Assembly: GCF_900240285.1 (NCBI RefSeq)
Contig: NZ_OESS01000002.1
Span: forward strand, 930,001-994,000
Reading direction: 5' to 3'
Length of the DNA: 64,000 nt
Source of the DNA: Halobacillus sp. Marseille-P3879
Lineage (GTDB): Bacteria > Bacillota > Bacilli > Bacillales > Halobacillaceae
Shown: positions 10,257 through 30,967 of the stretch, piece after piece
Layout of the letters: each line of letters starts with the position of its first letter
How positions within the stretch are numbered: the first letter of the stretch is position 1
Notes under the pieces: model-generated
Told to the model about the DNA's origin: nothing
Database searches by the model: none
Seen by the model: only the letters and a program-made list of their open reading frames with translations
Program-made: the position numbers and the translations under genes

Positions 10257-10586
10257 CTACTCGACTTGCTTATTCAACCTAAAGGACAAGTTTTTACGGT
10301 ACGTTTTTGTACTAATATCATACAACTCCATAGCCCAAGTCCTTCTAAATCCATGTTCCTTTAAAGCATCTTTAACTTGCTGTTCCAATGTTTCAAGATT
10401 TCCCTTGCTATAAAGATCAACTTGTATACTATAAATCGTTGATTTCTCATCATCGTCAGCAATCAATCCTGACCTTTCGTTATAAGTGAAGAATGTTATA
10501 TAAGTTGTTTCCGAACCTGTATAATGGTGAAAAGCAACAGGGGCATAAGGTTTAAGAGCATTTATGATAGTTGAATTTACACTCAT
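10257..10586 (-). CDS. Tail terminator / tail completion protein
   Basis: 109 residues. It begins MSVNSTIINALKPYAPVAF and contains STIYSIQVDLYSKGNLETLE and LYDISTKTYRKNLSFRL, a pattern of siphovirus tail terminator (SPP1 gp17-like) proteins that cap the tail tube and meet the head connector. The call rests mainly on position (between the HK97 gp10-like gene and the major tail protein) and size. It overlaps the preceding gene by 4 bp (ATGA type). Confidence 0.75.
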   Translation of the reverse strand: MSVNSTIINALKPYAPVAFHHYTGSETTYITFFTYNERSGLIADDDEKSTIYSIQVDLYSKGNLETLEQQVKDALKEHGFRRTWAMELYDISTKTYRKNLSFRLNKQVE

Positions 10587-11017
10587 AATTTAGTCGCCTT
10601 CCTTATTACTTCACCCATTGCTTGCTGAATCTCTCCTACACTGTTCTCTAATGAAGGACGCATAAACGGTTTTGCGGGAATTGAAGGAGTAGTATAAGTC
10701 TTACCATCTTTACCTTTGTATGTACCGCTTTTAGCACCGACTTCATGGAAAAATAAATAAAAGAAATCATCAGATACACCAATATCGTACAGGTCTTCAT
10801 TTACATTCTTAACAACCTTGAAATTATCACGGGCATGTCGCTTATTTTGGCTTGATACAGGCACATTAGGATGCTTCTCGATCTTACTTTTTACGACTTC
10901 TGCGCCTGTTTTCATAGCCTTATCTTTCGTTTCACCGTCAAGATTTTTAGCCATCTTAGCTATTTCCCTAGTTAAATCATCGAATTTTTCTAATCCTTGA
11001 ACGCCAAACTTGGACAT
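10583..11017 (-). CDS. HK97 gp10-like neck / head-tail joining protein
   Basis: 144 residues with KFGVQGLEKFDDLTREIAKM near the start, AEVVKSKIEKHPNVPVSS, a central NVNEDLYDIGVSDDFFYLFF and C-terminal PAKPFMRPSLENSVGEIQQA. This is the layout of HK97 gp10-family proteins, which end in a 'PA.PF.RP' motif. The family acts at the head-tail interface during siphovirus assembly. The start codon abuts the stopper gene (position 11017 shared) and the end overlaps the tail terminator gene, so the connector genes are translationally coupled. Confidence 0.88.
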   Translation of the reverse strand: MSKFGVQGLEKFDDLTREIAKMAKNLDGETKDKAMKTGAEVVKSKIEKHPNVPVSSQNKRHARDNFKVVKNVNEDLYDIGVSDDFFYLFFHEVGAKSGTYKGKDGKTYTTPSIPAKPFMRPSLENSVGEIQQAMGEVIRKATKL

Positions 11018-11355
11018 TAAGACACTTCCCTTCCCATAATAGTTAGGGTAATATTTGCCTCATTGTCGTTAATGACTGATTCAATTTCATAAACCCTATC
11101 TTTGTAGATAACTTTCATACTATCATCTACGTGTAACCCTTTACGATAACGAATAATAAACCTTGTGATATTCTCAGTCTGATCTGCTTTAGCTTTGTGA
11201 TATTCTTGTGCTGAGACAGGTTTAACCTTTGCTCGGACACTGTAAGTAGTAGGCTCAGGGTTTTCAATTAAATATCCATCATGGTCATACTGTGGCTCAT
11301 CAGATGATTTACCTTGTATTTTGATACGCTTATTAAGATCCCCTGCTGAAATCAT
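11017..11355 (-). CDS. Head closure (stopper) protein, SPP1 gp16-like
   Basis: 112 residues beginning MISAGDLNKRIKIQGKS and continuing TYSVRAKVKPVSAQEYHKA, ENITRFIIRYRKGL, VIYKDRVYEIESVIND. This is the classic beta-barrel stopper family pattern (phage head-tail adaptor, SPP1 gp16-like), which closes the connector after DNA packaging. It overlaps the adaptor gene upstream by ATGA and touches the gp10-like gene downstream. Confidence 0.9.
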   Translation of the reverse strand: MISAGDLNKRIKIQGKSSDEPQYDHDGYLIENPEPTTYSVRAKVKPVSAQEYHKAKADQTENITRFIIRYRKGLHVDDSMKVIYKDRVYEIESVINDNEANITLTIMGREVS

Positions 11356-11669
11356 TCCTCTTCTTCCTCTACATGTGTATAAGTCAACTGAGCCAGTAAA
11401 GCTCTTACAGTGAAATCCACTTTATTTACAGCAACGTGTGAACTGGAAACAATTGACCTGTGATCATACCAGTGTGAAGTGAGCAATTTAACTATCAATT
11501 TTGCAGTGTCAGGCTGTTCATCTTCAAATTTGAATCCCGTAGCCCTCTTTACATAGTCTTCAGCAGCCAGAATAAAACTGTTAATATCCGCATCTTCTTC
11601 AATATCATCTGGTTCCAATCTCAAATAGCTTTTCATTTCGTCTAGGGTGACTAAAATTGGTTCTAACAT
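11352..11669 (-). CDS. Head-tail connector (adaptor) protein, gp6/gp15-like
   Basis: 105 residues: VTLDEMKSYLRLEPDDIEED, FILAAEDYVKRATGFKF and KLIVKLLTSHWYDHRSIVS match the small helical adaptor family (HK97 gp6 / SPP1 gp15, 'QLRG' DNA-packaging type). It binds below the portal ring to extend the connector. The gene is first in the connector cluster after the capsid gene, separated from it by a short palindrome. The acidic C-terminus (HVEEEEE) overlaps the stopper start. Confidence 0.9.
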   Translation of the reverse strand: MLEPILVTLDEMKSYLRLEPDDIEEDADINSFILAAEDYVKRATGFKFEDEQPDTAKLIVKLLTSHWYDHRSIVSSSHVAVNKVDFTVRALLAQLTYTHVEEEEE

Positions 11670-11692
11670 TTAATCGCCTCCCCTAATTTAAG

Positions 11693-11712
11693 AAGGGGCT
11701 TATAAGCCCCAT
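11693..11712 (-). terminator. Palindrome after capsid gene, probable weak terminator
   Basis: The perfect 16-bp palindrome GGGGCTTATAAGCCCC lies just past the major capsid stop and is followed on the minus strand by TTCTTAAATTA. The stem is strong but the U tract is interrupted, so it may act as an mRNA 3'-end stabiliser or partial terminator that keeps capsid expression above connector genes. Confidence 0.6.
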
Positions 11713-11717
11713 TTCAA

Positions 11718-12848
11718 TTATGCAGTTTCAGTCACGTCAATTTCTGCTAGTACATATGCACTTGAATCAGCCTGACGCACGTCAAACCTCTCAACTACAC
11801 GAGCAACGTTTTGGTTCTTAGTGAATCCAGCTTCTGTAGAAACAGCTACTTCATAAACGCCACGGTCAAAGAATTTAGCACCTTCGCTAGTAGCACCGAT
11901 AAACATTGGAGCTTTGTATCCATCAGTTTCATCACCAGTTGTAGGAAGTTCTGCGTTAGAATAAACGTGTACTGGAAGACCAAGTACTAGGTATTGAGTA
12001 GCGTTTGCAGGGTCTTTCTGAAGTAATGGACGACCATTTTCATCTTCCATACCATCAAGAGCATTGAAAGCGTCTTGGTTCATAGCCATTACAGCCAGTG
12101 CTTTGATTGCAGGATCAAGGTCAACATTAACGATTTTCTTAAGAGATTTAAGGTCAGTAACAGCTTTAGCAGTCTTACCTTGTTTAAGTGCAGCAAAGAT
12201 TTTAGCATTTTCAGTACGAATAGCTTTCTTAGCGAAATGTCCATTAAGGAAATTCATGAAATTAGCTGTTTCGTCTTGAAGGAAACTACGAGAAATAGGA
12301 GTTACAGAACCATAGTTAGCAACTTTGTACTCAATGTTACGGAATTTAGGCTGTTGTTCAGCAAGACCACTGTTATCTTCGTCAAAGTTTACAAGCTCAG
12401 TAATACCAGCAAGGTCTTCTTGTACGAAAGAACCGGCTTCAGTAGATACAGGAACAGTACCAATGATGTCTTTTGCAGACTTATATTGACGCTTAAGTTC
12501 GTTAATTTCATTTTTGATTTCTTCTGGTACTAGGTATCCTCCCTCAGCACTAACAGATGCTTGAACAAGAGCTCTTTCTTCTTGTGTAAGAGACTTCCCT
12601 TGTACTGCTTTAGTAAATACTGTACGGATCTCTAATTTTTGTTCTTTGTTATCACGTTTTTCCATTTTAATTTCCACCTCACGCTGTTCTTCTTTATCAA
12701 GTTCCATTTGGATTTCAATTTGTTTTTCTAGTGAACGTAATTCTTCTAACTTAGTACTTGCTTCCTCAATCTTGTTTTCTGCGTTTAGAGAACGCACTTC
12801 TTCTTTAAGTCCAGCCTTCATTTGCTTTAATTCATCTACTTTTTTCAT
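11718..12848 (-). CDS. HK97-fold major capsid protein
   Basis: 376 residues. Residues 1 to ~95 are a charged coiled coil (VDELKQMKAGLKEEVRSLN ... EVEIKMEKRDNKEQ), the delta/scaffold domain removed by the prohead protease. The capsid fold follows from ~105: SVSAEGGYLVPEEIKNEINE, VPVSTEAGSFVQEDLAG, YGSVTPISRSFLQDETANF, a C-terminal KNQNVARVVERFDVRQADSS. These are standard HK97-family motifs. The gene follows the protease gene, the usual portal-protease-capsid order. Confidence 0.95.
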   Translation of the reverse strand: MKKVDELKQMKAGLKEEVRSLNAENKIEEASTKLEELRSLEKQIEIQMELDKEEQREVEIKMEKRDNKEQKLEIRTVFTKAVQGKSLTQEERALVQASVSAEGGYLVPEEIKNEINELKRQYKSAKDIIGTVPVSTEAGSFVQEDLAGITELVNFDEDNSGLAEQQPKFRNIEYKVANYGSVTPISRSFLQDETANFMNFLNGHFAKKAIRTENAKIFAALKQGKTAKAVTDLKSLKKIVNVDLDPAIKALAVMAMNQDAFNALDGMEDENGRPLLQKDPANATQYLVLGLPVHVYSNAELPTTGDETDGYKAPMFIGATSEGAKFFDRGVYEVAVSTEAGFTKNQNVARVVERFDVRQADSSAYVLAEIDVTETA

Positions 12849-12878
12849 TTAAAATTACCTCTTCCATTAATTTTTGGT

Positions 12879-12912
12879 ATTAAAAAAGAACTTTCCTTTT
12901 AGAAAAGTTCCA
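12879..12912 (-). terminator. Hairpin overlapping protease gene end
   Basis: On the minus strand GAACTTTTC-loop-GAAAGTTC is followed by six T. The stem is AT rich and 7 to 8 bp, and overlaps the last codons of the prohead protease. It would partially separate protease and capsid expression. Confidence 0.55.
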
Positions 12913-13522
12913 GTTCAATTTCTATTTGTTTTTGTCGAAGTGCTCTTGCTTCCTTTTGTGCTTGAGCCTTCCTTAAATCTTCTTGAGCTTTCTTATGATC
13001 CTCTAGACTACGTTGTGCAATCGTTGATTCACTTGCCTGATAAGCAGGGTATGTAACTACAGATACATCGAAAATTTTGTCGAAACGCTTTATGGTACGT
13101 AAGTAAATATCATTTTGTTCATCATATTCCCATTCGTCACCGTCACCTGTAATACTGAATCCAAAGGAGCTTTGATCTATGTCGCCTCGCCCCATAGAGA
13201 AGGCTAAATCTCGTGCAAAAGACGTATCTGGTGGATCAATTATGTATTTTAGACCGAACTCGTCAACTTCGAGAGTTAATGTTCCTGATTTTGAGCGAGC
13301 TAACACCATATTAGGATCGTGATTAAAAAGTCCTCTCACATCACTCATATCAGCACCATTTAATGCAGATGGATCTATAACTTCCACAAATCCACCTAGA
13401 TTCTCTGATTTTGAGTTAAATTTAAGAGCATAACCAACAATAACCTGTTTATTCTCATCATTCTCGCTTGCTCTAAGCTCAATCGGCATCGTTAGAGTCC
13501 TTGTTTCCTTGTTCATCGTCAA
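12899..13522 (-). CDS. HK97-family prohead protease
   Basis: About 207 residues. The ribosome-binding site AAGGAGGTG lies 8 nt before a TTG at 13522, with an in-frame ATG at 13516 as alternative; a longer frame opening at 13564 lacks such a site. Motifs: KQVIVGYALKFNSKSENLGG, DVRGLFNHDPNMVLARS (His of the catalytic triad), MGRGDIDQSSFGFSI (catalytic Ser) and DVSVVTYPAYQAS. This matches the U35/S78 prohead protease family that trims the capsid delta domain. The gene starts inside the 3' end of the portal gene (about 40 bp overlap), common in this module. A Lys/Glu/Gln-rich tail forms the last ~35 residues. Confidence 0.93.
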   Translation of the reverse strand: MTMNKETRTLTMPIELRASENDENKQVIVGYALKFNSKSENLGGFVEVIDPSALNGADMSDVRGLFNHDPNMVLARSKSGTLTLEVDEFGLKYIIDPPDTSFARDLAFSMGRGDIDQSSFGFSITGDGDEWEYDEQNDIYLRTIKRFDKIFDVSVVTYPAYQASESTIAQRSLEDHKKAQEDLRKAQAQKEARALRQKQIEIELELF

Positions 13523-14759
13523 TGTTTTCACCTCCTTCAAAGGCATCTTTGCCCTGACTTTCATAAGCCATTCCTACTTTATCAAGAGGTTGCATTGTTC
13601 CATTGACAATTAATCGGTCTCCGCCTTCTGCAGATATCAAATCTTCCTTTTTCCTTGCTTCATTTGGCTTCAAGAAACCCTTTTCAATTCCTATCGCATA
13701 AGCGTCATAACGAGTCTTAATATCAGCTCTGAGGATAGCATCAACATTAAACTTAAAGAATTTACCTTGGTTAATTTCCTTCTCAGTTAGTAACTTGTAT
13801 GTAAGTTCTTGCTCATACATAGTGAGGATGGATTGTAATGTATCTCGATAAAATTCTTCATTCTGCTGAGTAACATTATTAAATTTAGCCCCAGACAAAT
13901 CATTGATCATATGCTGCTTGATACCAAATGCACTTGCTATCTGTCTGATTGACAAGTTAGTTATTTCAAAGAATTGAGCATCAGCCATTGAAGTATTTAT
14001 GGTTTGAAATTGGTATCCCGGTGGAACAGGCAGGATCTTACCTACGTTATCCATACCATTAGCCATTTTTTCAAACCTTTGTTTGACTCTGTTGATAGCT
14101 TCTGGTTCAATATCTCCAGTGTATTGTAAAAGCCCTTTAGCTGTTAGACCGCCTTTAAAATACTTATTTACATAATCAGAACTGTATTGCAGATTCTCTA
14201 CAACAGTTGATAAGTAATCCTTGATCGGCATACCGTGAATACCATCACGAGTTAAACCTTTGAAATGTAAAACTTCTTCACTTCTGAACTTAAACTCTCT
14301 TGTATTCTGTTTGTAAACGTACCAAATAGCACTGTCTTTACCAATAATGGCATTATTATCAACCCAAATTTCAACATTAGCCATATCTAATGGATGCAAA
14401 CCTTCCACTTTACCGTTAGGTGCAGTATGGATAGCAACAACAGAGTGACCGAAATAATTACGTTGAAACTCGACCATCTTCCAAAAATCAGAGGAAGACA
14501 TGTTCTTATTAGGTCTTAACTTCATTTTATTATGTAGATAATGCTTACTAGCAACATCTGTTCCATTAGTGGACTCTTCATACAACTTTAATGGGAGTTT
14601 CGACACAGTATCACTAAGAATACGTAAACAAGTATAGAATGTAGCTTCACGAGCTTTATTACTCGATATACCGTCTATGTCAATCCCTAATGACCTTGCA
14701 AGTTCTTCATCAGTTGTTGTTAAACTTCTCTTACTAATCTTGTTTTTCTTGAATAGCAA
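13479..14759 (-). CDS. HK97-family portal protein
   Basis: 426 residues with TFYTCLRILSDTVSKLPLKL, HYLHNKMKLRPNKNMSSSDF, YFGHSVVAIHTAPNGKVEGL, LHFKGLTRDGIHGMPIKDYL and RQIASAFGIKQHMINDLSGA, all signature blocks of the HK97 portal family. It forms the dodecameric ring through which DNA is packaged and ejected. The C-terminal ~45 residues are acidic and overlap the protease gene. It begins just after a small membrane protein gene downstream of the large terminase. Confidence 0.95.
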   Translation of the reverse strand: MLFKKNKISKRSLTTTDEELARSLGIDIDGISSNKAREATFYTCLRILSDTVSKLPLKLYEESTNGTDVASKHYLHNKMKLRPNKNMSSSDFWKMVEFQRNYFGHSVVAIHTAPNGKVEGLHPLDMANVEIWVDNNAIIGKDSAIWYVYKQNTREFKFRSEEVLHFKGLTRDGIHGMPIKDYLSTVVENLQYSSDYVNKYFKGGLTAKGLLQYTGDIEPEAINRVKQRFEKMANGMDNVGKILPVPPGYQFQTINTSMADAQFFEITNLSIRQIASAFGIKQHMINDLSGAKFNNVTQQNEEFYRDTLQSILTMYEQELTYKLLTEKEINQGKFFKFNVDAILRADIKTRYDAYAIGIEKGFLKPNEARKKEDLISAEGGDRLIVNGTMQPLDKVGMAYESQGKDAFEGGENIDDEQGNKDSNDAD

Positions 14760-14764
14760 CTAAT

Positions 14765-15034
14765 TCACCTCCCTCCACGAGCAAGTATATTGGAATCCAA
14801 GAAACCTAAGCCCACAAGTACCATAAATACGCCTGCTACATACAAGGCAGGTGCAATTCCAAATGAAATCAATGTTGCAACTACGATTAGCAGCAATCCT
14901 AAGAAAATCAATACGTCTTCTACATTGTCAGTTACAAATTCGACTGTATTCTTACTCTTTTTTAGAGTTTTAACTTTAGTTTTAGAACATGTTTTCTTAA
15001 TCTTAGACCATGTTTCCTTCAATTTTTCTTTCAC
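14765..15034 (-). CDS. Small membrane protein between terminase and portal genes
   Basis: 89 residues. The first ~35 are basic (KEKLKETWSKIKKTCSKTK), then two hydrophobic segments (VLIFLGLLLIVVATLISFGI and APALYVAGVFMVLVGLGFL) make a likely two-helix inner-membrane hairpin. Small proteins of this kind (for example the DUF1056 type) often sit between TerL and portal genes in HK97-like Firmicute phages, with no established function. The assignment to a named family is tentative. Confidence 0.7.
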   Translation of the reverse strand: MKEKLKETWSKIKKTCSKTKVKTLKKSKNTVEFVTDNVEDVLIFLGLLLIVVATLISFGIAPALYVAGVFMVLVGLGFLDSNILARGGR

Positions 15035-15038
15035 CTTA

Positions 15039-16745
15039 TCACCATCCCAACTTATCTAACTCTTCGTCACTGTAATTACCTACATCGCCGTATTGATAAT
15101 GGAATCTTGCATGAGCATGTGCGGTTATAATACTTGCTACTGGATCAATTCTTTGACTTGATTTCGATTTATCCAACATGAAATTTTCGTTATGATCCAT
15201 TTTTGTGACAGCATTACCCATAGCAAAATTAATTACAGGGTTATTATCATGAATTATTTTTTCTTGATACACCAATTCTCTAAAATCTTTTGAAGCTGGT
15301 GCTAATGTCTTCATACCTTGAACGACTTTAACTGTTATGTAACCTAAATCTGCAGCATTATTAGCAAATTGAGTGGCGTTCCAATCGTCATAATAGAGAG
15401 CTTTAACTTTCCAATTGTACTTTTCAACCTGTTCGTCTATATACTTTTGCAGAAACCGATAATCCACTACATCTCCGGGGGTAAATGAGAGCCAACCTTG
15501 ACGTTCGTATAAGTCATACGGCACTTTGTCGGTATTCATCTTAGACATTAACGTATTCTCAGGCATAAACGAGTGTCCTTTGACAACAAATTTATCTTCG
15601 CCAATAGGTATTAAAAAAGCCACACTCGTTAAATCGAGAGTAGCACTCAAATCTATTCCTATATAAACTTCTTTACCTGAGATATCAGGAAGGCTTTCAC
15701 CCTTTCCAATACCACAATTATTCCAACGTTTAAGATCCATATAGCCATTTTCTTTTGCTTGAACCCAAATATTCATGTGTTTAGTTAGAAATTCAGTCAT
15801 TTTTTCTGGTTGTTCTAAGGCTACTTTCAATCTGCTTCTTAAAGCATCCATACCTTCTTCATAAGTAGCAACGATGGGGTTTGCCTTTATCCAGTTTTTT
15901 TCCAATTTTATGTCATCTTCTGGCTCTAATTCGCAGATCATAGCGAAATATTCATCATTATCGACAGTACTTTCAGGGTCTAATATTTTAGATACGTATT
16001 CATACTCTTTAAAGCAAGGAACATTTAAATCAAGACCTGCTGTGGTTATGACTACATGGAGGGTGTTCAGCCTACCAATCATACCTGATAATAAAACGTC
16101 AAATATTTCAGATGTCTCATGGGCATGGTACTCATCAATAATATTAAGAGAAGGGAATTTACCATCTCCGGTTTTTCTCGCTTCTTTAGATAATGGTTGA
16201 ATTACAGATCCACTTTTTTTATGTGTAATGACTCCGTAAGAGGTCTTGTATTTACCACTTAAGAATTTTGCATTATCAATTTGATCTAATATCTGTTGAT
16301 ACACAATCTTCGACTGTTCTTTGGTTACGCCAGCTATGTAAATCTGTTGTTTTTCTTCGCTTAAGAAACCTACATATGATGCTATTAATGCTTGCAGTTG
16401 CGATTTCGCTTGTTTCCTAGCTAATTGTATGTAAACACGTTTGAACTTTCGTGTATGGTTCTTTTTAGACTTCCAACAAAAGATATTTGCAACTAGAAAC
16501 AACTGGAAATCAGTTAACTCAATAGGTTGATTAGCAAGTTTTCCTTCAACATGCTTGAACATTTTTGCCCAATCGTAGAAATCAATCAGCTCATCACCAT
16601 CGAAGTAATACTCAAAATCATCATCTTCAATCTTATTTACATCGTCAAAGAACCTTTGACATGCTTGGACGTGCTTTTTGCAAGCCAGAATATCCCCTTC
16701 AACTATGTCAGTTGCATAACTCCATACTCTTTCAATCAGGCTCAT
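15039..16745 (-). CDS. terL: Terminase large subunit
   Basis: 568 residues. The ATPase half has a Walker-A-like element in RVYIQLARKQAKSQLQALIA and a Walker B at SLNIIDEYHAHETSE. Further motifs are FLSEEKQQIYIAGVTKEQS, VITTAGLDLNVPCF and the nuclease-domain start VYIGIDLSATLDLTSVAFLI. These match the phage terminase family (Terminase_1, HK97/phi-105-type). The protein cuts and translocates DNA through the portal. The start overlaps the TerS stop (ATGA). Length is typical for the family (about 560 to 580). Confidence 0.95.
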   Translation of the reverse strand: MSLIERVWSYATDIVEGDILACKKHVQACQRFFDDVNKIEDDDFEYYFDGDELIDFYDWAKMFKHVEGKLANQPIELTDFQLFLVANIFCWKSKKNHTRKFKRVYIQLARKQAKSQLQALIASYVGFLSEEKQQIYIAGVTKEQSKIVYQQILDQIDNAKFLSGKYKTSYGVITHKKSGSVIQPLSKEARKTGDGKFPSLNIIDEYHAHETSEIFDVLLSGMIGRLNTLHVVITTAGLDLNVPCFKEYEYVSKILDPESTVDNDEYFAMICELEPEDDIKLEKNWIKANPIVATYEEGMDALRSRLKVALEQPEKMTEFLTKHMNIWVQAKENGYMDLKRWNNCGIGKGESLPDISGKEVYIGIDLSATLDLTSVAFLIPIGEDKFVVKGHSFMPENTLMSKMNTDKVPYDLYERQGWLSFTPGDVVDYRFLQKYIDEQVEKYNWKVKALYYDDWNATQFANNAADLGYITVKVVQGMKTLAPASKDFRELVYQEKIIHDNNPVINFAMGNAVTKMDHNENFMLDKSKSSQRIDPVASIITAHAHARFHYQYGDVGNYSDEELDKLGW

Positions 16746-17242
16746 ACTCGACCACCAAATTTATTGCCTTCATCATCTTCTTTGACTTCATTAATCATGT
16801 TTCTAGCTAATGAAGCACGAGCAGCAGGCGTTAATCCAAACTCACCCATTAATTTGCTCATCTGATCAAAGGCTTGTTTCTTCTTAGTCAGGAGTGGATG
16901 AGGAATACTGTTTGTTGCCCCTGCTTTGTTCGTTTGCTCAATAGTAAAACCTTCTTCTTCAACGGTTCTTGTACATTCTATGTAATCAAGTAAAGCATCA
17001 GCGTATAAGGCTAAAGCATTGACATCAACATTCTTAAGTAATCCAGAACCCTTGAACTCTTTAACCAGTTTATTAAAGTGTTTCTTAGCTTCTTTCCTAA
17101 GCCAAGTTGGTGCTCTAACTGCATCGTCTTTAAAATTCATGTCCTCTTCTGCTTGCTTTCTTTTTTCTAATTCATCATTAGAACGATGACTCTTTGAACC
17201 CTCTAACAAATGCAAATGAGCAGGTTTTGCTTTTCTTCCCAT
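16742..17242 (-). CDS. terS: Terminase small subunit, P27 family
   Basis: About 166 residues starting at the ATG at 17242, 8 nt after AAGGAG; an upstream GTG at 17251 overlaps the ribosome site. It starts GRKAKPAHLHLLEGSKSH, then VRAPTWLRKEAKKHFNKLVK, VNALALYADALLDYIECTRT and FDQMSKLMGEFGLTPAARA, which is characteristic of the P27 terminase small subunit family. It recognises the phage cos/pac site and recruits TerL. P27-type TerS with an adjacent HNH gene is usual in cos-packaging phages. Confidence 0.93.
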   Translation of the reverse strand: MGRKAKPAHLHLLEGSKSHRSNDELEKRKQAEEDMNFKDDAVRAPTWLRKEAKKHFNKLVKEFKGSGLLKNVDVNALALYADALLDYIECTRTVEEEGFTIEQTNKAGATNSIPHPLLTKKKQAFDQMSKLMGEFGLTPAARASLARNMINEVKEDDEGNKFGGRV

Positions 17243-17251
17243 CGGTATCAC

Positions 17252-21808: not shown

Positions 21809-22369
21809 TTAAATTAAACCATTTGTTAAACGCTTGTGTGACTTACCTTTCAGTAAATAATAAACAGTATTATAATGCTTCTCATAGGCTTCGCTCATTG
21901 CAAGCACAAACGAGGAAAACTTAAATCCTTTAGTATCTCTAAATTCTATAAATTGCTCTAAGATCTCACAAACTTCATCATCTCTAAGTCGCTTAAATTT
22001 TCCTAACTTACCACGTACATTAGGATCATACTGATCTTCATATTGTTGTTTGCGTGTGCATAGCGACATTTTATAAAAGCTATCGGGATTCTCCCCAAAC
22101 TTATCGTCGTGATTTATTTCCAATCCCTGATTGAGCCACCAATTACATTTAACTCCCATACCTGCACTCATAATTAAACTATGTACTGAATAAGGAGAAG
22201 ATTTACCATTAACTTTGAGTGTAGTATAGCGATATCCAAAACGATTCGCTTTTTGTTTTAGGTAGCGATTACTCTTAACGCTCCAAATTAATCCCTTGTC
22301 TAAATCTGCTAAATACTCCTTACTAAAATCCAACTCCGGAATTGGTACTAAAACTGTTTCTTCTTTCAT
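21809..22369 (-). CDS. HNH homing-type endonuclease-like protein
   Basis: 186 residues. KGLIWSVKSNRYLKQKANRF and GYRYTTLKVNGKSSPYSVHS resemble NUMOD-type / phage HNH proteins. LEINHDDKFGENPDSFYKMS, followed by CTRKQQYEDQYD, is equivalent to the HNH core 'vNH.DG...N...NLe.vt...N'. The C-terminal ~65 residues (LRDDEVCEILEQFIEFRDTK) look like a helix-turn-helix DNA-binding tail. It is a freestanding gene upstream of accessory genes. Activity is uncertain because the core is divergent. Confidence 0.6.
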   Translation of the reverse strand: MKEETVLVPIPELDFSKEYLADLDKGLIWSVKSNRYLKQKANRFGYRYTTLKVNGKSSPYSVHSLIMSAGMGVKCNWWLNQGLEINHDDKFGENPDSFYKMSLCTRKQQYEDQYDPNVRGKLGKFKRLRDDEVCEILEQFIEFRDTKGFKFSSFVLAMSEAYEKHYNTVYYLLKGKSHKRLTNGLI

Positions 22370-22531
22370 CTAAAACATCCTTCTATAATTTTTTGGTAAT
22401 GTACAATCGCTTATACATTCCATTCGACTTCATCCACTATTCGGTAATATTAAAATGGACTCCAGATAGCTAACCTGAAGCCCGCACACTACCAAAAAGG
22501 ACTTAAGGATGAGAAAAGCCCAATGCAACAC

Positions 22532-22566
22532 ATAAAAAGATACCCTGCCAATAAGACAGGGCTATA
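22532..22566 (-). terminator. Terminator in the gap before the HNH-like gene
   Basis: Minus strand AGCCCTG-TCTTATTGG-CAGGG followed by TATCTTTTTATG. It sits in the gap between the RNA polymerase-like gene and the HNH-like gene, with another terminator upstream, so a short transcript may begin and end between the two. Confidence 0.65.
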
Positions 22567-22711
22567 TAAGGAGAAAATATTAATATTCCCAACGCTTCTC
22601 ACCGTTGGATAATTCGCTGTAAAATTTAATTTATCTCTTGCAATTCCATTGACTATCCTTTAATATAGAATTAAGCAATAAATAATCAGGAGAAGTTTGT
22701 GATTTTTTAAG

Positions 22712-22812
22712 TAAAAATAATAAAAAAGAGAAGAGAACGCACCTACTGGTCTTTTAGACTTTCAATGGGCGAAATCAAAGACTAGTCTTCGCACTACATT
22801 CTCCCTCTATAT
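22712..22812 (-). terminator. Large terminator after the RNA polymerase-like gene
   Basis: On the minus strand, ~40 nt after the stop, GAGAA and GCG pair with GC and GTTCTC through an interrupted lower stem. ACTAGTCTTT pairs with AAAGACCAGT (one mismatch) in the upper stem, around a ~22-nt loop. It is followed by TTCTCTTTTTTATTATTTTT. The long interrupted stem is larger than a typical intrinsic terminator. Confidence 0.65.
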
Positions 22813-22850
22813 TGGAAACTTCACAAACCCCTATAAATCAACCTATATGG

Positions 22851-25541
22851 CTATTTTTGCGAACTTTTTTCAGTAAATATTGACAAAAACGTCTCTCTAT
22901 GAGTTGTGTAAAGCATATTCATCATTTTACTAGCAATCTTACTCTTATTATTCAACACATTCTTAATTATGTAATACATGGTGTCCTCATTAATCTTCTT
23001 CTTTTCTATGTAAAACTGACAATACTTTACTACATTGTCCATCGCTTCAAACTGTTCAGTTTCATTAGAATACTTTTTAGCCTTAATACTATTTACTTGT
23101 CTGACCATTTTACCAACTCGGTCAAGGATATCGTTATGTTGTTTTTTATTTACATTACGTTTTGGGTATGTATTCATTAATTTCATTATGTCAATGTTAT
23201 CAAGTGGTTCTGATCGTTCAATATTATCCAGTATGTTATGTAAGTAGTCCATTGATGTCTTATAAGCTGTTACCCTATCTTTAATAGTTTTACTTTGCTT
23301 AACTGTTTTAAAAAATAAAGGTTTCAACGGCTTCAAATCTGTCGTCTCTTCCATGTATTCGATCTCATCACCAATATTGAGGTCATATAGTTTTTTAGCC
23401 ATATCTATTGAGATCTCTGAAAGAATGGTGAATATTTCTGTTTTCTTTAACAACTCCTCTAATACTTCATCGTCTTCTCCATTTGTCTTTCCATCCCAAT
23501 ACAAACTAAGGATCTCTTGAGCCAGATTAACAACTGTACCAATGTTATCTGTAGACTCACCTAAAACATGATCGATTTCAGATTTATCTAGCATATTCAA
23601 TTTATAATTCTTCTTCTGACTTTTTACGTTGTTGATTGACACCGGATATTTGCCATCCATCTCTTTTGCTCGCTGTAGAAGGATTTCAGAATCGAATAAG
23701 CAAACGACATCTCCGTCTTGGTCAGCTCCCGATAAAATATCTAAAACAGGAAATCCAATAACGTTAATAGCTACAACGTTACTTCCTAAATTGAAATACT
23801 TGTCAATTTTATCACTTTTAACATTATCAGTTATTAACACATTCGATGGGCTAGTATGTGGATTTCTGAAACCAACGTACTCTTTACCAAAAGGAAATAA
23901 TTCAGTATGTATTTGATTACCTTTTAATGGTTGCTGATCTTCTTTTATGTTATGAATATCAAACTTGCGAATACTATGTAAAAGCATTTCATAGCAATTA
24001 CCGATTAAAACACAGTAGTCACCGGGTATTCTTAGCTTACCCCTCTTAATGTGGTTTTTAAATCTATTCTTTTCAGCTTTTCGGAAATCACGAAACATTT
24101 TAGTTTGTACGAAGTCGGAGTTATGTCGGTACAAATCAATTAACATTTCGTTCATGTTCACTTCATTAATGCCTTTATACAGATGCTCAATATATTCATC
24201 ATCATTAGATAAATTTCTTATGTATTTCACATCAAACTCTGATAGTTTTTCAACATCTTCCTCTGTAAGTTGCATTGAATTTATCATCTGATAACTGGTT
24301 TGTTGAACAAACTGCCCATCATCGTTTGTTCCTCTACTTGTTTTTGATTCAGATTTACAAACACCGAATACATTACCTTCAGTTTCTACAAACTGTCTCC
24401 AATAGTCCCACATCTGTCTTTCTTTATTGCCCCCTGAGAATAAGTGGCTGAATTTCAGAAACTTAGCAGACGAAGGAGTAGTGATCATGTCTACATCCTT
24501 AGCTTTAATTGGCTGATTAAACATGTTCTTAATTTCCCATTCGTCAAAAGAAGTATCCTCTGGACAATTAGCTTCCATAAAATCAGTTATGTTTGTAGAA
24601 AAGCTAGCTGTTTTAAACATGTGGTTTCTAAGTTGCAGCATATGTTCATCTACTTTAAAAAATTTACTATGTAATAAGCTTTGACCGTCAAATAAACTAT
24701 TGGTTATTTCGGCATTTTCATCTAATATACAGTCCAGGAATCCATTTTTACCTTTTTGGACTACATTAGCCTTCCAGTTAAATGTACTTTCTACATCATC
24801 CACAATCAAGATTTTGTTTGGGTCAATGTTAAGTGTCTTTTCAATACTAGATCCAACCAAGCTCTCATATGCCATTAAAGAAGCTAAGTCAACATTAAAA
24901 TTCTTGTGAAAAGGAAGTTCCATTCTCGACCACTTAATCATCTTGCTATAAAGTGATTTTTTGATAAACAAGCACTCGCCTTTTCTAGATTTTGAAGAGC
25001 TTCGTTTGTACATTTTGTATTCAGTTTTTTTACCTTTATCATCCGTTATGGTAAACCCTTTATCGTAGAGTTTCTCTCTTAACTCTTTATTCTTAACTTC
25101 CTTCCATTCCGGATACCTTTTTGGGTCACTAAATTCGTTTTCCTTAAACTCTTCAAGGCTTCGCTTGTATTGTTTTTTATTCTGAATGCGTTCTTGAATC
25201 TTTTCTTTCTGTTTACTACCTATTTGCTTATCATTAATTTTCGAATTGAGCTCTCTGATTTCCTTTTCAATATCTTTTATCTTCCTCATAACACCTTTTT
25301 GAACTTCTCCCCAACCTTCAACTTTCTGATTGAAACGGACATTTATTAAGTCGTTACTCATCAATTTTTCGCTAGTTTTATTGGGAATCGTTTTCAATTT
25401 CATTTTATGTAGTTTCATTAGTTCTAAGCTATAAGGTATCATACCCACATGCTCAAGTTTCAGGTTTTGACCTCTTTTCTCATGTCCATACAGAGCAGCG
25501 CCTTCTACGCTTGGAATATATACAGATTGTTTTTTGCTCAT
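22851..25541 (-). CDS. YonO-like single-subunit RNA polymerase (DxDGD family)
   Basis: 896 residues, close to SPbeta YonO (about 900). Residues 604-611 are SGADQDGD: the DxDGD metal-binding motif (Asp607, 609, 611) of two-barrel RNA polymerases (multisubunit beta', eukaryotic QDE-1 RdRPs, phage YonO). About 50 residues earlier GFRNPHTSPSNV matches the Arg-Pro element that precedes DxDGD in those enzymes. SRKGECLFIKKSLY (~185-197) may come from the other barrel and supply basic active-site residues. Residues ~80 to 135 are a charged coiled coil. Established for the family: YonO is a DNA-dependent RNA polymerase for phage late genes. Inference: this protein transcribes this prophage's middle or late genes. 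It lies 28 bp downstream of the initiator-like gene and is followed by a large terminator. Confidence 0.82.
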   Translation of the reverse strand: MSKKQSVYIPSVEGAALYGHEKRGQNLKLEHVGMIPYSLELMKLHKMKLKTIPNKTSEKLMSNDLINVRFNQKVEGWGEVQKGVMRKIKDIEKEIRELNSKINDKQIGSKQKEKIQERIQNKKQYKRSLEEFKENEFSDPKRYPEWKEVKNKELREKLYDKGFTITDDKGKKTEYKMYKRSSSKSRKGECLFIKKSLYSKMIKWSRMELPFHKNFNVDLASLMAYESLVGSSIEKTLNIDPNKILIVDDVESTFNWKANVVQKGKNGFLDCILDENAEITNSLFDGQSLLHSKFFKVDEHMLQLRNHMFKTASFSTNITDFMEANCPEDTSFDEWEIKNMFNQPIKAKDVDMITTPSSAKFLKFSHLFSGGNKERQMWDYWRQFVETEGNVFGVCKSESKTSRGTNDDGQFVQQTSYQMINSMQLTEEDVEKLSEFDVKYIRNLSNDDEYIEHLYKGINEVNMNEMLIDLYRHNSDFVQTKMFRDFRKAEKNRFKNHIKRGKLRIPGDYCVLIGNCYEMLLHSIRKFDIHNIKEDQQPLKGNQIHTELFPFGKEYVGFRNPHTSPSNVLITDNVKSDKIDKYFNLGSNVVAINVIGFPVLDILSGADQDGDVVCLFDSEILLQRAKEMDGKYPVSINNVKSQKKNYKLNMLDKSEIDHVLGESTDNIGTVVNLAQEILSLYWDGKTNGEDDEVLEELLKKTEIFTILSEISIDMAKKLYDLNIGDEIEYMEETTDLKPLKPLFFKTVKQSKTIKDRVTAYKTSMDYLHNILDNIERSEPLDNIDIMKLMNTYPKRNVNKKQHNDILDRVGKMVRQVNSIKAKKYSNETEQFEAMDNVVKYCQFYIEKKKINEDTMYYIIKNVLNNKSKIASKMMNMLYTTHRETFLSIFTEKSSQK

Positions 25542-25568: not shown

Positions 25569-26762
25569 TTAAAATTTGTATGCTAAATCTGAATGATCGT
25601 AGTCCATCTTATCTTCATCGTTCCATTCTCCGTTTTCATCTGGACGGTACAACTCTATTTCATCTAATTCCATAATGGATGTAGAGTGAACGCCCCAAAC
25701 CATACCATCAGGAGACATAGAATCCATAGTTCCATACTGATAATAAATACGGCTTGGGACAGTTTTCTTGTTCCATGCTTTGTGTGAAATCAATTTGTCA
25801 TTTACAAGCAAAACTACATCATTTGTATTTTCGATGATTTCACCTGCAGCAACCTTGTTTCTCTCTTCATTCTTTGCTTCAACACTTTCTTTGGCTTTTT
25901 CCATATATGGTTTATCTACTGACTTCTTGAACCAATCACCCTTAGAACTCTTCATGATCCGTTTACGTTTCTTGTCACACTCTGCTTTAAAATCTTTGTT
26001 ACTGATATTTTTTATGTAAATTATGTAATCATTTTCATCTAAGTTATTGTTGTTCAGCCAATTACCAGTATCGAAATAATACTCATCGTTAGAGTTAAAA
26101 TCAGGCTCACTAGAGCGGTTTTCTTCTGCTACTGGCGTTTCCTTGTCGAAAGGCTCAACGCTGTACTGGTTGCTATCCTTTTTCTTCTGACCTGCTCTTA
26201 CTTCCTTATCTGTGTAATTGCCAGCCTTACAATAAATGACCTCTCTATCAACAGCATCATTAACCTTCCTCTCAGCAGTCTTAGTTGACATGTCTAAGAT
26301 GTTTCCCCAACGCTCATAAGAACAAGTAAACGATCCTGCTTTCTTCCACCTGGAAACAATAAAAGTTATGTATAAATCGGTTTTACCTGTCTTACCTTCA
26401 ACTGAATCAAAATAATCGTATGTAATTTGCTCATGACCTAAAACCTTATCTTCCTTTAAACCTTCGACAAATGTTACCTTGAAAAAGTTTGCACTTGAAA
26501 CTTCTCGATCAATATTGATTACGGCTTTTTCTTGCAGCGACATTAGATATGTAGAAACACGTTGTCTTCCTTCTCTTGCTCTACTGTGGAAAGGACTGTT
26601 ACAATAATTTCTGACATACTCTTCAATACCGTTAACGTTTACGTATGTTTCACCTTTGTAATTTGATAACCTTCTTAACACTGAATACAAATACAACTCT
26701 TCCACTGACAAGTGGTACTGACTTTTTTCCTCACCTAATACGTTATACAATTTAATGAACAT
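25569..26762 (-). CDS. Putative replication initiator / winged-helix DNA-binding protein
   Basis: About 397 residues from the ATG at 26762, 9 nt after GGATGGAG; a longer frame opens at 26801 without a suitable site. Two helix-turn-helix-like blocks are visible. The first is SVEELYLYSVLRRLSNYKGE to GRQRVSTYLMSLQEKAVINI (~15-100), and the second is YITFIVSRWKKAGSFTCSYE to DMSTKTAERKVNDAVDREVI (~135-200). A tandem winged-helix N-terminus recalls plasmid and phage initiators. The C-terminal half is acidic and unrecognised. Three iteron-like repeats lie 180 to 270 bp upstream. It is the only replication candidate between the integrase and the packaging genes. It could instead be a transcription regulator. 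Confidence 0.5.
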   Translation of the reverse strand: MFIKLYNVLGEEKSQYHLSVEELYLYSVLRRLSNYKGETYVNVNGIEEYVRNYCNSPFHSRAREGRQRVSTYLMSLQEKAVINIDREVSSANFFKVTFVEGLKEDKVLGHEQITYDYFDSVEGKTGKTDLYITFIVSRWKKAGSFTCSYERWGNILDMSTKTAERKVNDAVDREVIYCKAGNYTDKEVRAGQKKKDSNQYSVEPFDKETPVAEENRSSEPDFNSNDEYYFDTGNWLNNNNLDENDYIIYIKNISNKDFKAECDKKRKRIMKSSKGDWFKKSVDKPYMEKAKESVEAKNEERNKVAAGEIIENTNDVVLLVNDKLISHKAWNKKTVPSRIYYQYGTMDSMSPDGMVWGVHSTSIMELDEIELYRPDENGEWNDEDKMDYDHSDLAYKF

Positions 26763-26829
26763 TCTTCGATTCTCCATCCTTTTAAAATTAATAACCAACA
26801 AACAACAACAAACAATGTCAAAGTTGGTT

Positions 26830-28767: not shown

Positions 28768-28790
28768 AGGTGACGAGAGGTGAATTTTAT

Positions 28791-29048
28791 ATGGCAATTA
28801 AAAGAAAACCAACTTCAATCATGCCTTGTTATAAGCCGTTTGAGCACACTCTTATCAATAAGGGAATCAAGAAGCAAACCCTTCGAGACGAATTAGGCAT
28901 ATCCGGGGCTACTTTTAGTAAAATGAAGAGAAATGAAAGCTTAAACATAGACACAATTGGTCTTATTTATGAGTACTTAGAATGTGAAAGCATTGAAGAA
29001 ATTGTCCGGTTTGTGCCAATTGAGCCTGAAGAAAGCCCCTCCAAATAG
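28791..29048 (+). CDS. Xre/Cro-type helix-turn-helix regulator (putative repressor)
   Basis: 85 residues from the ATG at 28791 (AGAGGTG 8 nt upstream; an ATG at 28770 is inferior). The core YKPFEHTLINKGIKKQTLRD, then ELGISGATFSKMKRNESLN and IDTIGLIYEYLECESIEEIV, is a complete five-helix Cro/C1-type HTH. It lacks a C-terminal dimerisation or cleavage domain. It is the only plus-strand gene of the visible prophage and faces the early operon across two perfect palindromes, so it probably maintains lysogeny or acts in the switch. No RecA-cleavable repressor is visible. Confidence 0.82.
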   Translation: MAIKRKPTSIMPCYKPFEHTLINKGIKKQTLRDELGISGATFSKMKRNESLNIDTIGLIYEYLECESIEEIVRFVPIEPEESPSK

Positions 29049-29066: not shown

Positions 29067-30038
29067 CTATATATCCAAGAAATTCATAGGTGAATGTTTC
29101 TGATATTTTTTACCGATTTCTTCCTCTGTGAAGTCCACATAGGCTTTTTGAGTTACTTCTGCGCTGCTATGACCTAATATCCTACTCAGCGTTGACCAAT
29201 CCCCACCATTTAACAAATAATACTTAGCAAAGTTATTACGAAGTTGGTGTGGATGAACACTTACTCCTGCTTTATCTCCAACCTTTTTTAATGCACGTTC
29301 AAAATTACGAACATCTTGCTTTGTACCTCGTGTTGTTGGAAACACGTAAGGACTGTCTGAATACCGATCACGATATTTCATCCACCTTTTCAGCTCTACA
29401 TTCATCTTCCTTGAAAAGTAAACATACCTCTCTTTATTGTTCTTGGGATTCCTAATTAGAATAGAATTATATTGAAAATCAATATCCTCTGGAAGCAGTT
29501 CGCATGATTCTCCTGCTCTAATACCCGTATCTAGAATTAATCTACATTGGAGCCATGCCCTATAATTGTGAAAAGTTGTAACGTCAAAGTGCTTAAAAAA
29601 TCTTCTTAGTTCATCAGGAGTCAATAATTTCTTTTGCTTTCTTGATGGTTTAATTGCTGGAATATTATCTACGGGATTCCTCATTATCTCCTTTTCGTTA
29701 TAAAGGAAATTGAAAAACACTTTAATATTTCTCAAATAATTAGAAATCGTTGTATCAGATATAGTTTTCCCTAAATCACTTCTTCGATCAGGGTAATTCT
29801 TGGTCATTGAAGATTCATTTGAAACCACAGAATACTTACCACGTTCCCTCAAATTTTTAATGTACTGCCTAATGTGAGCAGAACTTACTTTTTCTACAGA
29901 GCTAATATCATGTTCTTGCTGTAAGTAAATCTGGAACAGTCTGAGTGATTGTTCGTAACTGGCTAGTGTTTTTCGACTCAAATTTTTCGAGTCACAGTAA
30001 AGTAAAAAATTGTCTAGTTGAAATTCAAAATTATCCAT
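29067..30038 (-). CDS. int: Tyrosine-type phage integrase
   Basis: About 323 residues from the ATG at 30038, 7 nt after GGAGG; a GTG at 30053 overlaps the ribosome site. The N-terminal core-binding domain spans FQLDNFLLYCDSKNLSRKTL to ~155. The catalytic domain has LDTGIRAGESCEL (Arg), NPKNNKERYVYF (Lys), VSVHPHQLRNNFAKYY (His-x-x-Arg), LSRILGHSSAEVTQKAYVDF (His and nucleophile Tyr). All R-K-H-R-H-Y residues are present, so it is likely active. It lies at the chromosome junction next to spo0A. It inserts and, with a directionality factor not identified here, excises the phage. Confidence 0.95.
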   Translation of the reverse strand: MDNFEFQLDNFLLYCDSKNLSRKTLASYEQSLRLFQIYLQQEHDISSVEKVSSAHIRQYIKNLRERGKYSVVSNESSMTKNYPDRRSDLGKTISDTTISNYLRNIKVFFNFLYNEKEIMRNPVDNIPAIKPSRKQKKLLTPDELRRFFKHFDVTTFHNYRAWLQCRLILDTGIRAGESCELLPEDIDFQYNSILIRNPKNNKERYVYFSRKMNVELKRWMKYRDRYSDSPYVFPTTRGTKQDVRNFERALKKVGDKAGVSVHPHQLRNNFAKYYLLNGGDWSTLSRILGHSSAEVTQKAYVDFTEEEIGKKYQKHSPMNFLDI

Positions 30039-30053
30039 AAAAATAGCCTCCAC

Positions 30054-30193
30054 TCCACCAATATCACTCGATGAATAGAAGGCAATAAACTAAAATATTG
30101 GTTGGCTATAAAGAATAAGTTTATCGGTACACACAGAAGTTTATTGGTAAACTGTGTATGGCTTTATTCCTTATAAAGACCGTCAAATCAACA
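30054..30193. other. Prophage-chromosome junction (att region) downstream of spo0A
   Basis: The 140 bp between the integrase ribosome site and the spo0A stop must contain one attachment junction unless the phage extends further. It holds direct repeats AGTTTATCGGTA (30118-30129) and AGTTTATTGGTA (30138-30149), an inverted half-copy GCAATAAACT (30082-30091) and a short hairpin GG-CTTTAT/ATAAAG-CC (30160-30181) after spo0A. Repeated short words of this kind match integrase arm-binding sites. The core cannot be named without the other junction. Confidence 0.5.
30138..30153. promoter_or_regulatory. Operator-like palindrome upstream of integrase
   Basis: AGTTTA-TTGG-TAAACT, with arms matching the operators at 28633 and 28715 but a 4-bp instead of 6-bp centre. 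It is in the likely int promoter region, so the Xre-type regulator may also control integration. The different spacing weakens the link. Confidence 0.45.
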
Positions 30194-30967
30194 TTAAGAC
30201 GCTTTGTGCTCTAATCTTAAGCGGTCAGCTACCATCGCTATAAATTCGCTGTTTGTCGGTTTTGCTTTTGTAGAGGAGATTGTATAGCCAAATAAAGATG
30301 AAATTGCTTCAATATTTCCTCGGTTCCACGCCACTTCTATGGCATGACGGATAGCTCGTTCTACCCTCGAAGCCGTAGTATTATACTTAGCTGCAATATC
30401 TGGGTAAAGGACTTTTGTAATGGATCCAAGCAGGTCAATATCTGTGTAAACCATGGTGATGGCTTCTCTTAAATATAAATAGCCTTTAATGTGAGCAGGA
30501 ACCCCTACTTCATGAATAATATGAGTTATACTTGTATCCAAATCAGGCTTCTTAGACTTTGTATAACTGCTGCCCATGGCCCGGTTAATTGGATCACCTA
30601 CATGTTTGATCTGTCTCACCTGCTCACCTAAATGATCTAAATCAAACGGTTTCATCATAAAGTATGCCGCGCCCAATTCAACAGCTTTCTTCGTTACCTC
30701 TTCTTGTCCAAAAGCAGTAAGCATGATTACCTCAGGTGATTGGTCTCTACCTTTGAGTTCCTGTAAAACAGCCAGTCCATCAACATGAGGCATAATAATG
30801 TCCAGAATAAGTACATCCGGCTTTTTTTCCTTTAACATTTCCAAGCAGTCCCTGCCATTGAACGCCGTACCAATTACTTCAATATCTTTAGCATCTGAGA
30901 AATAATCCTCCAGAAGTCTTACTAACTCACGGTTATCATCAGCTAAACACACTTGAATTTTATCCAT
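30194..30967 (-). CDS. spo0A: Sporulation master regulator Spo0A
   Basis: 257 residues. The receiver domain has acidic Asp10/Asp11 (CLADDN), phospho-acceptor Asp56 (VLILDIIMP) and Lys in YFMMKPF. The C-terminal DNA-binding domain begins ~145 ([20 protein letters not shown]), with the recognition region [20 protein letters not shown], and ends LRLEHKAS as in other Bacillaceae. Established role: the phosphorelay end-point that commits cells to sporulation. The gene is intact although a prophage begins within about 140 bp of its stop. AAGGAGGAAGG precedes the ATG. It follows spoIVB in the same direction, as in Bacillus subtilis. Confidence 0.98.

Follow-up and report, generated by a model that had tools for sequence, protein, structure and literature searches.

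A YonO-type single-chain RNA polymerase gene in a compact Halobacillus prophage is followed by a promoter-like box and a structured RNA that may serve late transcription

The window analysed here, a 64,000-nt stretch of the Halobacillus sp. Marseille-P3879 genome, includes part of an element of about 40.2 kb bounded by a 193-bp exact repeat in the 3′ end of spo0A, which was identified at the repeat by NCBIfam TIGR02875 (396 bits). The right copy of this attachment repeat (30193..30385) makes up the last 64 codons of spo0A, stop counted; its partner begins at window position -10020. A tyrosine integrase (29067..30053, minus strand) lies next to a gene on the plus strand (28770..29048) for a Cro/C1-type helix-turn-helix (HTH) protein (PF13443, E 2.1e-8), a probable repressor that is divergent from the early operon and gave no match in a PHROG search at E≤1e-4. 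On the minus strand follow a gene for a 410-aa protein (25569..26801), the polymerase gene (22851..25541), a 481-nt non-coding gap (22370..22850) and, as the first gene behind the gap, an HNH endonuclease (21809..22369). The late packaging, head and tail genes (1316..17251) lie on the polymerase strand; PHROG profiles find the small and large terminase subunits, portal, head protease, major head protein and tape measure, and the remainder was assigned by position. This bears out an earlier note, made from the sequence letters, which had described a compact siphovirus prophage. The same note had placed a putative initiator upstream of the polymerase gene. The 410-aa neighbour is indeed found there, 27 nt upstream, while its identity as a replication initiator is plausible only, with no credible family match. 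It has a homologue in one relative, L025 (BLAST E 1e-11); at this position others encode proteins without detectable similarity, some of them HTH-like and two helicase-like. A reading of the neighbour as a promoter-specificity factor was dropped, because most relatives encode a dissimilar protein at that place.

The polymerase frame has 896 codons, as first described, and lies on the minus strand, which the description had omitted; the plus strand across the same interval contains many stops. The product carries SGADQDGD at residues 604-611 and Arg-Asn-Pro at 559-561, again as described, within an FRNP that begins at residue 558, and its catalytic aspartates are residues 607, 609 and 611. R559, P561, the three aspartates and lysines K310, K360 and K716 show no variation across the 13 aligned members, among them SPBc2 YonO and an Enterocloster-phage homologue, so SGADQDGD is not a chance motif in this protein; K310 and K360 are candidate barrel-1 lysines. 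Unusually, the window polymerase reads DxDGD, whereas the residue at position 610 is serine in at least 90% of 21 aligned sequences, the window's own included in the set. Direct computation placed the protein in the YonO family: phrog_8308 is matched by both the window polymerase (512 bits) and SPbeta YonO (1220 bits), and hhalign compared the two profiles at 98.1% (E 9.1e-14) over 516 columns with the catalytic motifs in register. In addition, a broad family profile extends to QDE-1-type polymerases (E 0.0046) over the RxP...SGxDxDGD segment. Taken together, these comparisons support the assignment as a YonO-type single-chain polymerase, putatively of two-barrel fold. That the protein is instead an inactive polymerase, a dead or repurposed barrel protein, is hardly credible, given the intact 896-codon frame and the strict conservation of the aspartates, of R559 and P561 and of the candidate lysines among the aligned members.

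The likeness to the eukaryotic RNA-dependent RNA polymerases (QDE-1; PF05183) is restricted to the catalytic segment; PF05183 was matched by 3 of 21 aligned family members (best E 3.4e-7) and not by the window polymerase. By tblastn, relatives were found in 11 of 50,697 phage records, and none was found in a search of plasmids. Among them are the polymerases of Enterocloster and Thomasclavelia phages and of unannotated human-gut phage contigs, at less than 30% identity, some of which are annotated as ‘RNA-dependent RNA polymerase’.

SPbeta offers the closest known point of comparison. According to Forrest et al. 2017 (PMC5467207), the SPbeta late genes form one operon transcribed by YonO, with a start that lies upstream both of yonK and of an unannotated non-coding RNA, and that paper leaves open the YonO promoter sequence and the need for other factors; no later answer was found in the literature searched. 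SPbeta shares with the window element a phrog_8308 polymerase with the same motif order and non-coding DNA that separates the polymerase region from the late genes. SPbeta YonO stands at 18-22% identity, however, and the layouts differ: SPbeta is 134 kb long, with yonN between the polymerase and a gap of 1.7 kb, whereas the window element has about 40.2 kb and its 481-nt gap directly behind the gene.

Turning to this gap, a search against phages gave short, weak matches only. The gap does contain a promoter-like box, CAATATAGAGGGAG (22801..22814, minus strand), which begins 36 nt past the polymerase stop, was found by motif search and is a candidate late promoter. The family consensus, YWWATRRWRRRRR, aligns to the window box from its second base. 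Expectation maximization (EM) on the 22 sequences from which the motif was derived gave, at width 12, a log-likelihood ratio (LLR) of 81.3, against 31.7-43.3 in 12 shuffles. Because the shuffles in such earlier runs had fewer restarts, EM was repeated with equal restarts on 82 non-redundant sequences (90 reduced by similarity), which yielded 187.1; 6 shuffles reached 49.2-61.5, and 6 samples of genuine DNA taken downstream of other open reading frames in these loci reached 52.4-78.0. Furthermore, a matrix of 20 sites, picked by eye with the help of EM, was applied to 71 of 75 new loci (L071-L073 and L103 were omitted as near copies; L147, L160 and L163, with a misplaced stop, were kept), and the 160 nt behind the gene ranked within the top 5% of windows in 28 loci and within the top 2% in 18.

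Several results limit how sharply the box is defined. At width 8, EM on the 22 sequences preferred another, ribosome-site-like pattern (LLR 40.2 against 18.5-27.1); at width 12 it differed in place from the by-eye reading in L034, L035, L037 and L039; and the region 130-300 nt behind the gene gave a T-rich pattern with an LLR of 75.3 that also exceeds the first region's shuffles, which were run with fewer restarts. In the window itself the box scores weakly, outside the top 6 sites reported over 40.6 kb and at rank 3 in a second ranking, and in 50 of 81 loci some other site of the available stretch scores better than the box. A logo of 50 sites is inflated, since these were selected by score. 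Repeated promoters across the late region were also sought, using each phage's own site (19 nt, at most 4 mismatches), and this was rejected: a second site appeared in 9 of 64 loci, mostly a poor one and in one case the site's own palindrome, with most phages available in part only.

The gap also holds a structured RNA of about 91 nt (22722..22812, minus strand), identified by covariation and by a covariance model built on 10 sequences, the window RNA among them. Its closing stem, P1, starts at the box; P2 bears a palindromic loop, GACUAGUC, and 19 of 24 RNAs have a palindrome in this loop; and P3 contains a GAA/AGUA internal loop. Covariation is strong. In the 10-row alignment its score was 0.546 against a shuffled mean of 0.212, with 0 of 500 shuffles as high, and in 24 rows, in an alignment fitted to the model, it was 0.591 against 0.214, again with 0 of 500. 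Compensatory changes were seen by covariation in P2 and P3 and by arm pairing in P1, whose arms pair at -15.7 kcal/mol with their own partner versus -10.3 kcal/mol with a foreign one (21 RNAs, the 24 minus the near copies L050, L067 and L053; none of 5000 permutations reached so low a value). The folding energies are mildly low (median z -1.5), and RNAalifold on a MAFFT alignment recovers P3 only, P1 and P2 having been read by hand. Rfam gave no match across 22722-22812 when window positions 17000-30300 were searched at E≤10, and on six further sources only two Pistol matches and one tRNA, all elsewhere, at the gathering score. To judge from the palindromic loop, the RNA probably dimerises, and it would be a class unlisted in Rfam and tied to YonO-type polymerases.

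We then asked how far the RNA goes with the polymerase gene. In 75 further loci, chosen for the presence of that gene, the model found 16 matches at E≤0.01, of which 15 lie directly behind the polymerase gene on its strand. These are not 75 independent events, because several loci are close (L070-L073; L050, L067 and L076; L053 and L086). L036 was omitted as a near copy of L024, and the 24 RNAs include L154 and L136 despite E values of 0.23 and 0.30. The RNA begins 33-102 nt past the polymerase stop, on the coding strand, in 24 of 25 placed RNAs (distances for L071-L073 taken from equal offsets); the exception, L153, has it 3.8 kb behind the gene. Whole genomes were searched with stricter filters, under which weak matches are lost. 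Across the order the RNA was present in 2 of 299 genomes, both within the 4 that carry the polymerase gene, and across the phylum in 1 of 398, the window's own; both distinct genomes carry the gene, and in whole genomes the RNA was found only together with it. The tie is one-way, the RNA not being present with every family gene: within the order, the remaining 2 of the 4 genomes with the gene yielded no match under the strict filters, and a wider RNA model, run on a further 78 loci of which almost all are polymerase loci, left 77 without a match at E≤0.01.

This regular placement also suits an unlikely alternative, in which box and RNA act in cis within the 3′ untranslated region of a host-made polymerase mRNA, either as a complex terminator or as a feedback or stability element. 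It would account for the position of 24 of 25 placed RNAs, immediately past the gene and on the same strand; a run rich in U that follows P1 in several members fits a terminator as well, and two ordinary terminator-like hairpins (22562-22542 and 22483-22457, minus strand) deeper in the gap also speak for it. Yet the palindromic loop and the conserved GAA/AGUA module would be superfluous in a terminator, and L153 retains the RNA 3.8 kb from the gene. Moreover, the best conserved bases of the box, YWWAT, are positioned at the edge of P1 or outside it, which looks like a sequence signal. An Rfam JA04 match over 22525-22608 fell far under the gathering score and was taken as chance.

Less probable still is an independent phage RNA that acts in trans, whether in packaging, in the priming of replication or in regulating the host, and simply accompanies the polymerase gene. 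The compact fold and probable dimerisation loop are reminiscent of phi29 pRNA, a small structured phage RNA with loop-loop contact through kissing loops, and no locus has more than one match at E≤0.01; against this, the RNA was seen in whole genomes only with the polymerase gene, whereas the neighbouring genes vary among relatives. HK022 put RNA is a leader that acts on polymerase. The window RNA differs from both phi29 pRNA and put in position and structure, and has no Rfam match there. In T7-type late promoters, T-A-rich bases precede a purine-rich start region, and a single phage polymerase reads them. The layout of the box is alike, although the polymerase is unrelated and, unlike in T7-type phages, there is mostly one site per available stretch, and the presumed start coincides with a structured RNA.

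Neither box nor RNA was recovered in SPbeta. Both RNA models gave no match on stretches of SPBc2 and phi3T or on the relatives PMBT24 and MT835469, and the box matrix did not single out the yonN-yonK gap of SPbeta. The published SPbeta start (position 2225998 of NC_000964; RNA-seq GSE80786), placed by putative prophage ends, fell inside the yonN-yonK gap and not at a box; this placement was discarded. Behind the gene in L015, L016 and MT835469, strings that resemble TATGAGAAGGG or TATGGAGAGGG and precede a hairpin were noticed by eye and are supported by no model. L015 and L016 are closer YonO homologues.

We favour, at a probability of about 0.58, the reading that the YonO-type polymerase, as a DNA-dependent enzyme of a small temperate siphovirus, drives the late genes from the box behind its own gene, with the RNA opening the late transcripts. 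Computation establishes the family membership, the box, the RNA fold and the company that this RNA keeps with the polymerase gene; we infer the box as a start site, its use by this polymerase and a role for the RNA. Against this reading stand the lack of box and RNA matches in SPbeta, the many polymerase loci with no RNA match, the better sites elsewhere in many loci, the weakness of the box in the window, the mildly low folding energies, the terminator-like U-rich run and the distant RNA of L153. The suggestion in the earlier note that the phage has its own transcription switch, likewise inferred, gains its strongest support from box and RNA, which sit just outside the coordinates of that note and had been missed there. 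In such a scheme the Cro/C1-type repressor would keep the early operon off; upon induction, the host polymerase would transcribe that operon, giving the 410-aa protein and the phage polymerase, and the latter would then initiate at the box that follows the gene encoding it. Late transcripts would open with a folded RNA of about 90 nt, its first stem at or next to the start site, and the RNA, probably dimerised through the palindromic loop, would act either on the late transcript or on the polymerase, perhaps by making the enzyme more processive or through release as a separate small RNA. More tentatively, and as a possibility we hold to be doubtful, there may be a new class of small RNA that is the first 90 nt or so of transcripts from a subgroup of YonO-type polymerases, dimerises by kissing loops and acts on its own polymerase, making a late system of protein and RNA with a promoter of about 20 bp.

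The polymerase family was already known, and the novelty is the module of box and RNA. Single-chain two-barrel polymerases have been proposed to resemble the ancestor of the cellular enzymes (Forrest et al. 2017, PMC5467207). The family is present in many contigs of about 28-42 kb and can therefore be studied in small genomes, beyond the 134-kb SPbeta. Since several dozen phages have the conserved box at a constant position downstream of the gene, the promoter question becomes directly testable on a short template, and an RNA seen only in the company of these polymerases hints that a minimal polymerase may have an RNA partner.

The gene for a single-chain RNA polymerase that an earlier note had placed at 22851–25541 was borne out as an open reading frame of 896 codons on the minus strand, with the motifs of its product exactly where that note had put them. 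The proposed kinship with YonO of SPbeta also held: when a profile of 21 sequences (the window protein and 20 relatives) was aligned with YonO using hhalign (probability 98.1%, E 9.1e-14, 516 columns), both RNPH/RSPH and DxDGD fell in register. The window protein (512 bits, residues 4–895) and SPBc2 YonO (1220 bits) share the PHROG family phrog_8308, to which PHROGs assigns no function. Residues K310, K360, R559, P561, D607, D609, D611 and K716 are among those that never vary in a 13-member alignment reaching out to YonO and further distant homologues. Searched by itself against solved structures, the window protein gave no match at E ≤ 1; the 21-member profile put QDE-1-type polymerases at the top (E 0.38–1.2), and the 13-member profile, which includes YonO, found them at E 0.0046, with no YonO structure in the latter's match list. 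Pfam RdRP matched 3 of the 21 aligned members and not the window protein. Judged by these sequence comparisons, the window polymerase is confirmed as a new member of the known YonO family. At residue 610, within DxDGD, the window enzyme is like SPbeta YonO and QDE-1, while Ser occupies this position in 90% or more of the 21 sequences aligned.

The host genome holds one copy of the window protein, which is 100% identical in a 39,685-bp IMG/VR prophage record. Within the order, the gene is present in 4 of 299 genomes (E ≤ 0.001), and a scan of 398 genomes across the phylum found phrog_8308 in five, and also in the control B. subtilis. Viral-contig scans returned 1, 18, the best 80 of 163, 37 and 4 relatives in overlapping sets. 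Many relatives lie on contigs of about 28–42 kb, and seven are on genome contigs from Paenibacillus, Jeotgalibacillus, Sporolactobacillus, Caryophanon and Lysinibacillus. When the window protein was used in tblastn, a relative was found in 11 of 50,697 phage records, all below 30% identity, and in none of 72,556 plasmids. Two genes for YonO-type polymerases, in opposite orientations, occur in one Paenibacillus locus (L037).

The prophage is an element of about 40.2 kb, flanked by a 193-bp exact repeat corresponding to the final 64 codons of spo0A, stop codon included, with the right copy at 30193–30385 and the left at window position -10020 (7981–8173 of L002, the locus covering the left end). 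It is inserted in the 3' end of this sporulation master regulator, of which a full 257-aa frame remains (TIGR02875, positions 1–262 of 262). The order, starting with the integrase, runs through a divergent Cro/C1-type protein, a few small genes, the gene for a 410-aa protein, that for the polymerase, a gap of 481 nt and an HNH gene to further small genes and then the genes for terminase, portal, protease, head and tail; holin and endolysin genes lie past the window edge, and one strand carries most of the predicted genes. Integrase, HNH, terminase and portal were seen again in several relatives. The gene preceding the polymerase is mostly not conserved: only L025 has a homologue of the 410-aa protein there (BLAST E 1e-11), none being detectable in the other relatives, and a Pfam scan of eight such genes left three without a match, three HTH-type (two below cut-off) and two helicase-like. 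Since this gene mostly does not recur and in some relatives is HTH- or helicase-like, a role in replication is likelier for the 410-aa protein than one as a polymerase factor. The left end (L002:8354–11575) encodes, past the lysis genes, an FtsK/SpoIIIE-like ATPase (PHROG E 1.3e-96), a neighbouring 196-aa protein that resembles a replication-relaxation protein by eye only and has no NCBIfam match, and a second Cro/C1-type protein (L002:11384–11575), odd cargo for a small siphovirus.

Behind the polymerase gene, in the window and 23 relatives, a TATATGG-AGGG string recurs. Expectation-maximisation at width 12 on the first 200 nt of 22 of these 24 sequences returned ATATGGAAGGGG (LLR 81.3 versus 31.7–43.3 in 12 Markov shuffles). 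Using a leave-one-out matrix on both strands, the site behind the gene was the best of its locus (11–40 kb each) in 11 of 21, and of 71 new loci, 28 had a best site in the first 160 nt after the stop that ranked in the top 5% of 160-nt windows, with 18 of these reaching the top 2%. The 82 pooled non-redundant sequences gave a log-likelihood of 187.1, against 49.2–61.5 for six shuffles with equal restarts and 52.4–78.0 for six samples of real DNA taken downstream of other ORFs in those loci. A 24-bp leave-one-out matrix ranked the box first in 31 of 81 loci, and 9 of 64 have a second similar site. In a logo built from 50 sites selected by score, T at -3 (78%) and an invariant AT precede eight positions nearly free of pyrimidines save one A/T position. 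The window's own box, CAATATAGAGGGAG (22801–22814, minus strand), is among the weaker copies. On a 91-kb contig (L117), a 19-nt site occurs twice, once 77 nt past the polymerase stop and once 6.9 kb ahead of it; the copies share TAAGTTACCTAATGG, with two mismatches in all, and this phage perhaps has two promoters.

At the box begins a structured RNA of about 91 nt (22722–22812, minus strand), whose fold is shared by ten sequences: a closing stem, P1, which opens at the box, and stems P2 and P3. P2 stems differ in sequence and keep their pairing. The P2 loop carries a 6-nt palindrome in nine of ten (shuffle mean 2.97, maximum 8 in 2000 shuffles; seven different hexamers) and an 8-nt one in seven (mean 0.86, maximum 4), and in the P3 internal loop the 5' side is mostly GAA-like and the 3' side holds AGUA without exception. 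In the ten-row alignment, made with MAFFT and with P2 positioned manually and P3 adopted from RNAalifold, 80% of cells pair versus 58.9% in shuffles, and both sides change in 10 of 12 pairs. A 24-row alignment scored 0.591 for covariation versus 0.214 for shuffles (0 of 500 as high); the ten-row count is the safer one, because the larger alignment was fitted to a covariance model. P1, excluded from that model and examined separately in 21 RNAs, pairs better with its own partner arm (-15.7 kcal/mol, a value reached by none of 5000 permutations, versus -10.3 with arms of other RNAs), ranking poorly in L136, L025, L052, L030 and L141. By raw count, a Watson-Crick 6-nt palindrome lies in the P2 segment of 19 of 24, including 10 of 14 outside the model set. 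Since folding energies are only mildly below shuffles (median z -1.5), the case for the RNA rests on covariation and placement. Rfam had no match at its location. Of six sources searched, two hold Pistol ribozymes (RF02679), at L024:896–962 (minus) and L069:2824–2895 (plus), which are separated from the polymerase gene by about 9 kb and 3 kb, respectively. By eye, another AT-rich stretch that looks conserved (TTAAAAAA...TCCTGATTAT-like) follows the RNA at about 22640–22700, and in the same place in L019, L025, L032 and L033.

The covariance model, built from P2 and P3 of the ten sequences, was run on both strands of 75 new loci (986,560 bases). Of 16 matches at E ≤ 0.01, 15 lie just behind the polymerase on its coding strand, and the remaining one, in L153, lies 3.8 kb behind the gene, after inserted genes. 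Three further, weaker matches fall behind the gene (two) or within it (one). The 24 aligned RNAs begin 33–102 nt past the polymerase stop. Two of the 299 genomes of the order have the RNA, both among the four with the gene, and the other two gene-bearing genomes gave no RNA match; in the phylum it was found in 1 of 398, the window's own genome, a match expected by construction because this RNA is in the training set. Among 78 further loci, almost all of them with a polymerase gene, a wider RNA model matched one at E ≤ 0.01, and SPbeta has neither box nor RNA by these models. Presence of the RNA implies the polymerase gene; the reverse does not hold.

In the available text of Forrest et al. 2017 (PMC5467207), YonO synthesises RNA on DNA, 37 induced SPbeta genes including the late cluster depend on it, and a YonO start lies upstream of yonK and an unannotated non-coding RNA; that text leaves the promoter sequence and any extra factors open. 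Like that account, the prophage has a polymerase gene, a sequence signal, a folded RNA beginning at the signal, and late genes. Because the anatomy matches, as far as that text goes, we read the box as a putative late promoter of the phage polymerase and the folded RNA as what would be the start of the late transcript. We hold this joint reading somewhat likelier than its alternatives together, at roughly 0.58, lowered slightly from 0.60 because the one-way tie between RNA and gene weighs against it; the base-level start, use of the box by this polymerase and the job of the RNA are inferred. The main rival reading is an element in the 3' untranslated region of the polymerase mRNA.

No earlier report of the box or the RNA was found among the matches listed in literature other than bioRxiv preprints and most subscription papers, including the available text of PMC11534266, PMC7824862 and PMC8270828. 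Taken together, the box and RNA form a well-supported and apparently undescribed module, with which the promoter question of YonO-type polymerases becomes testable.
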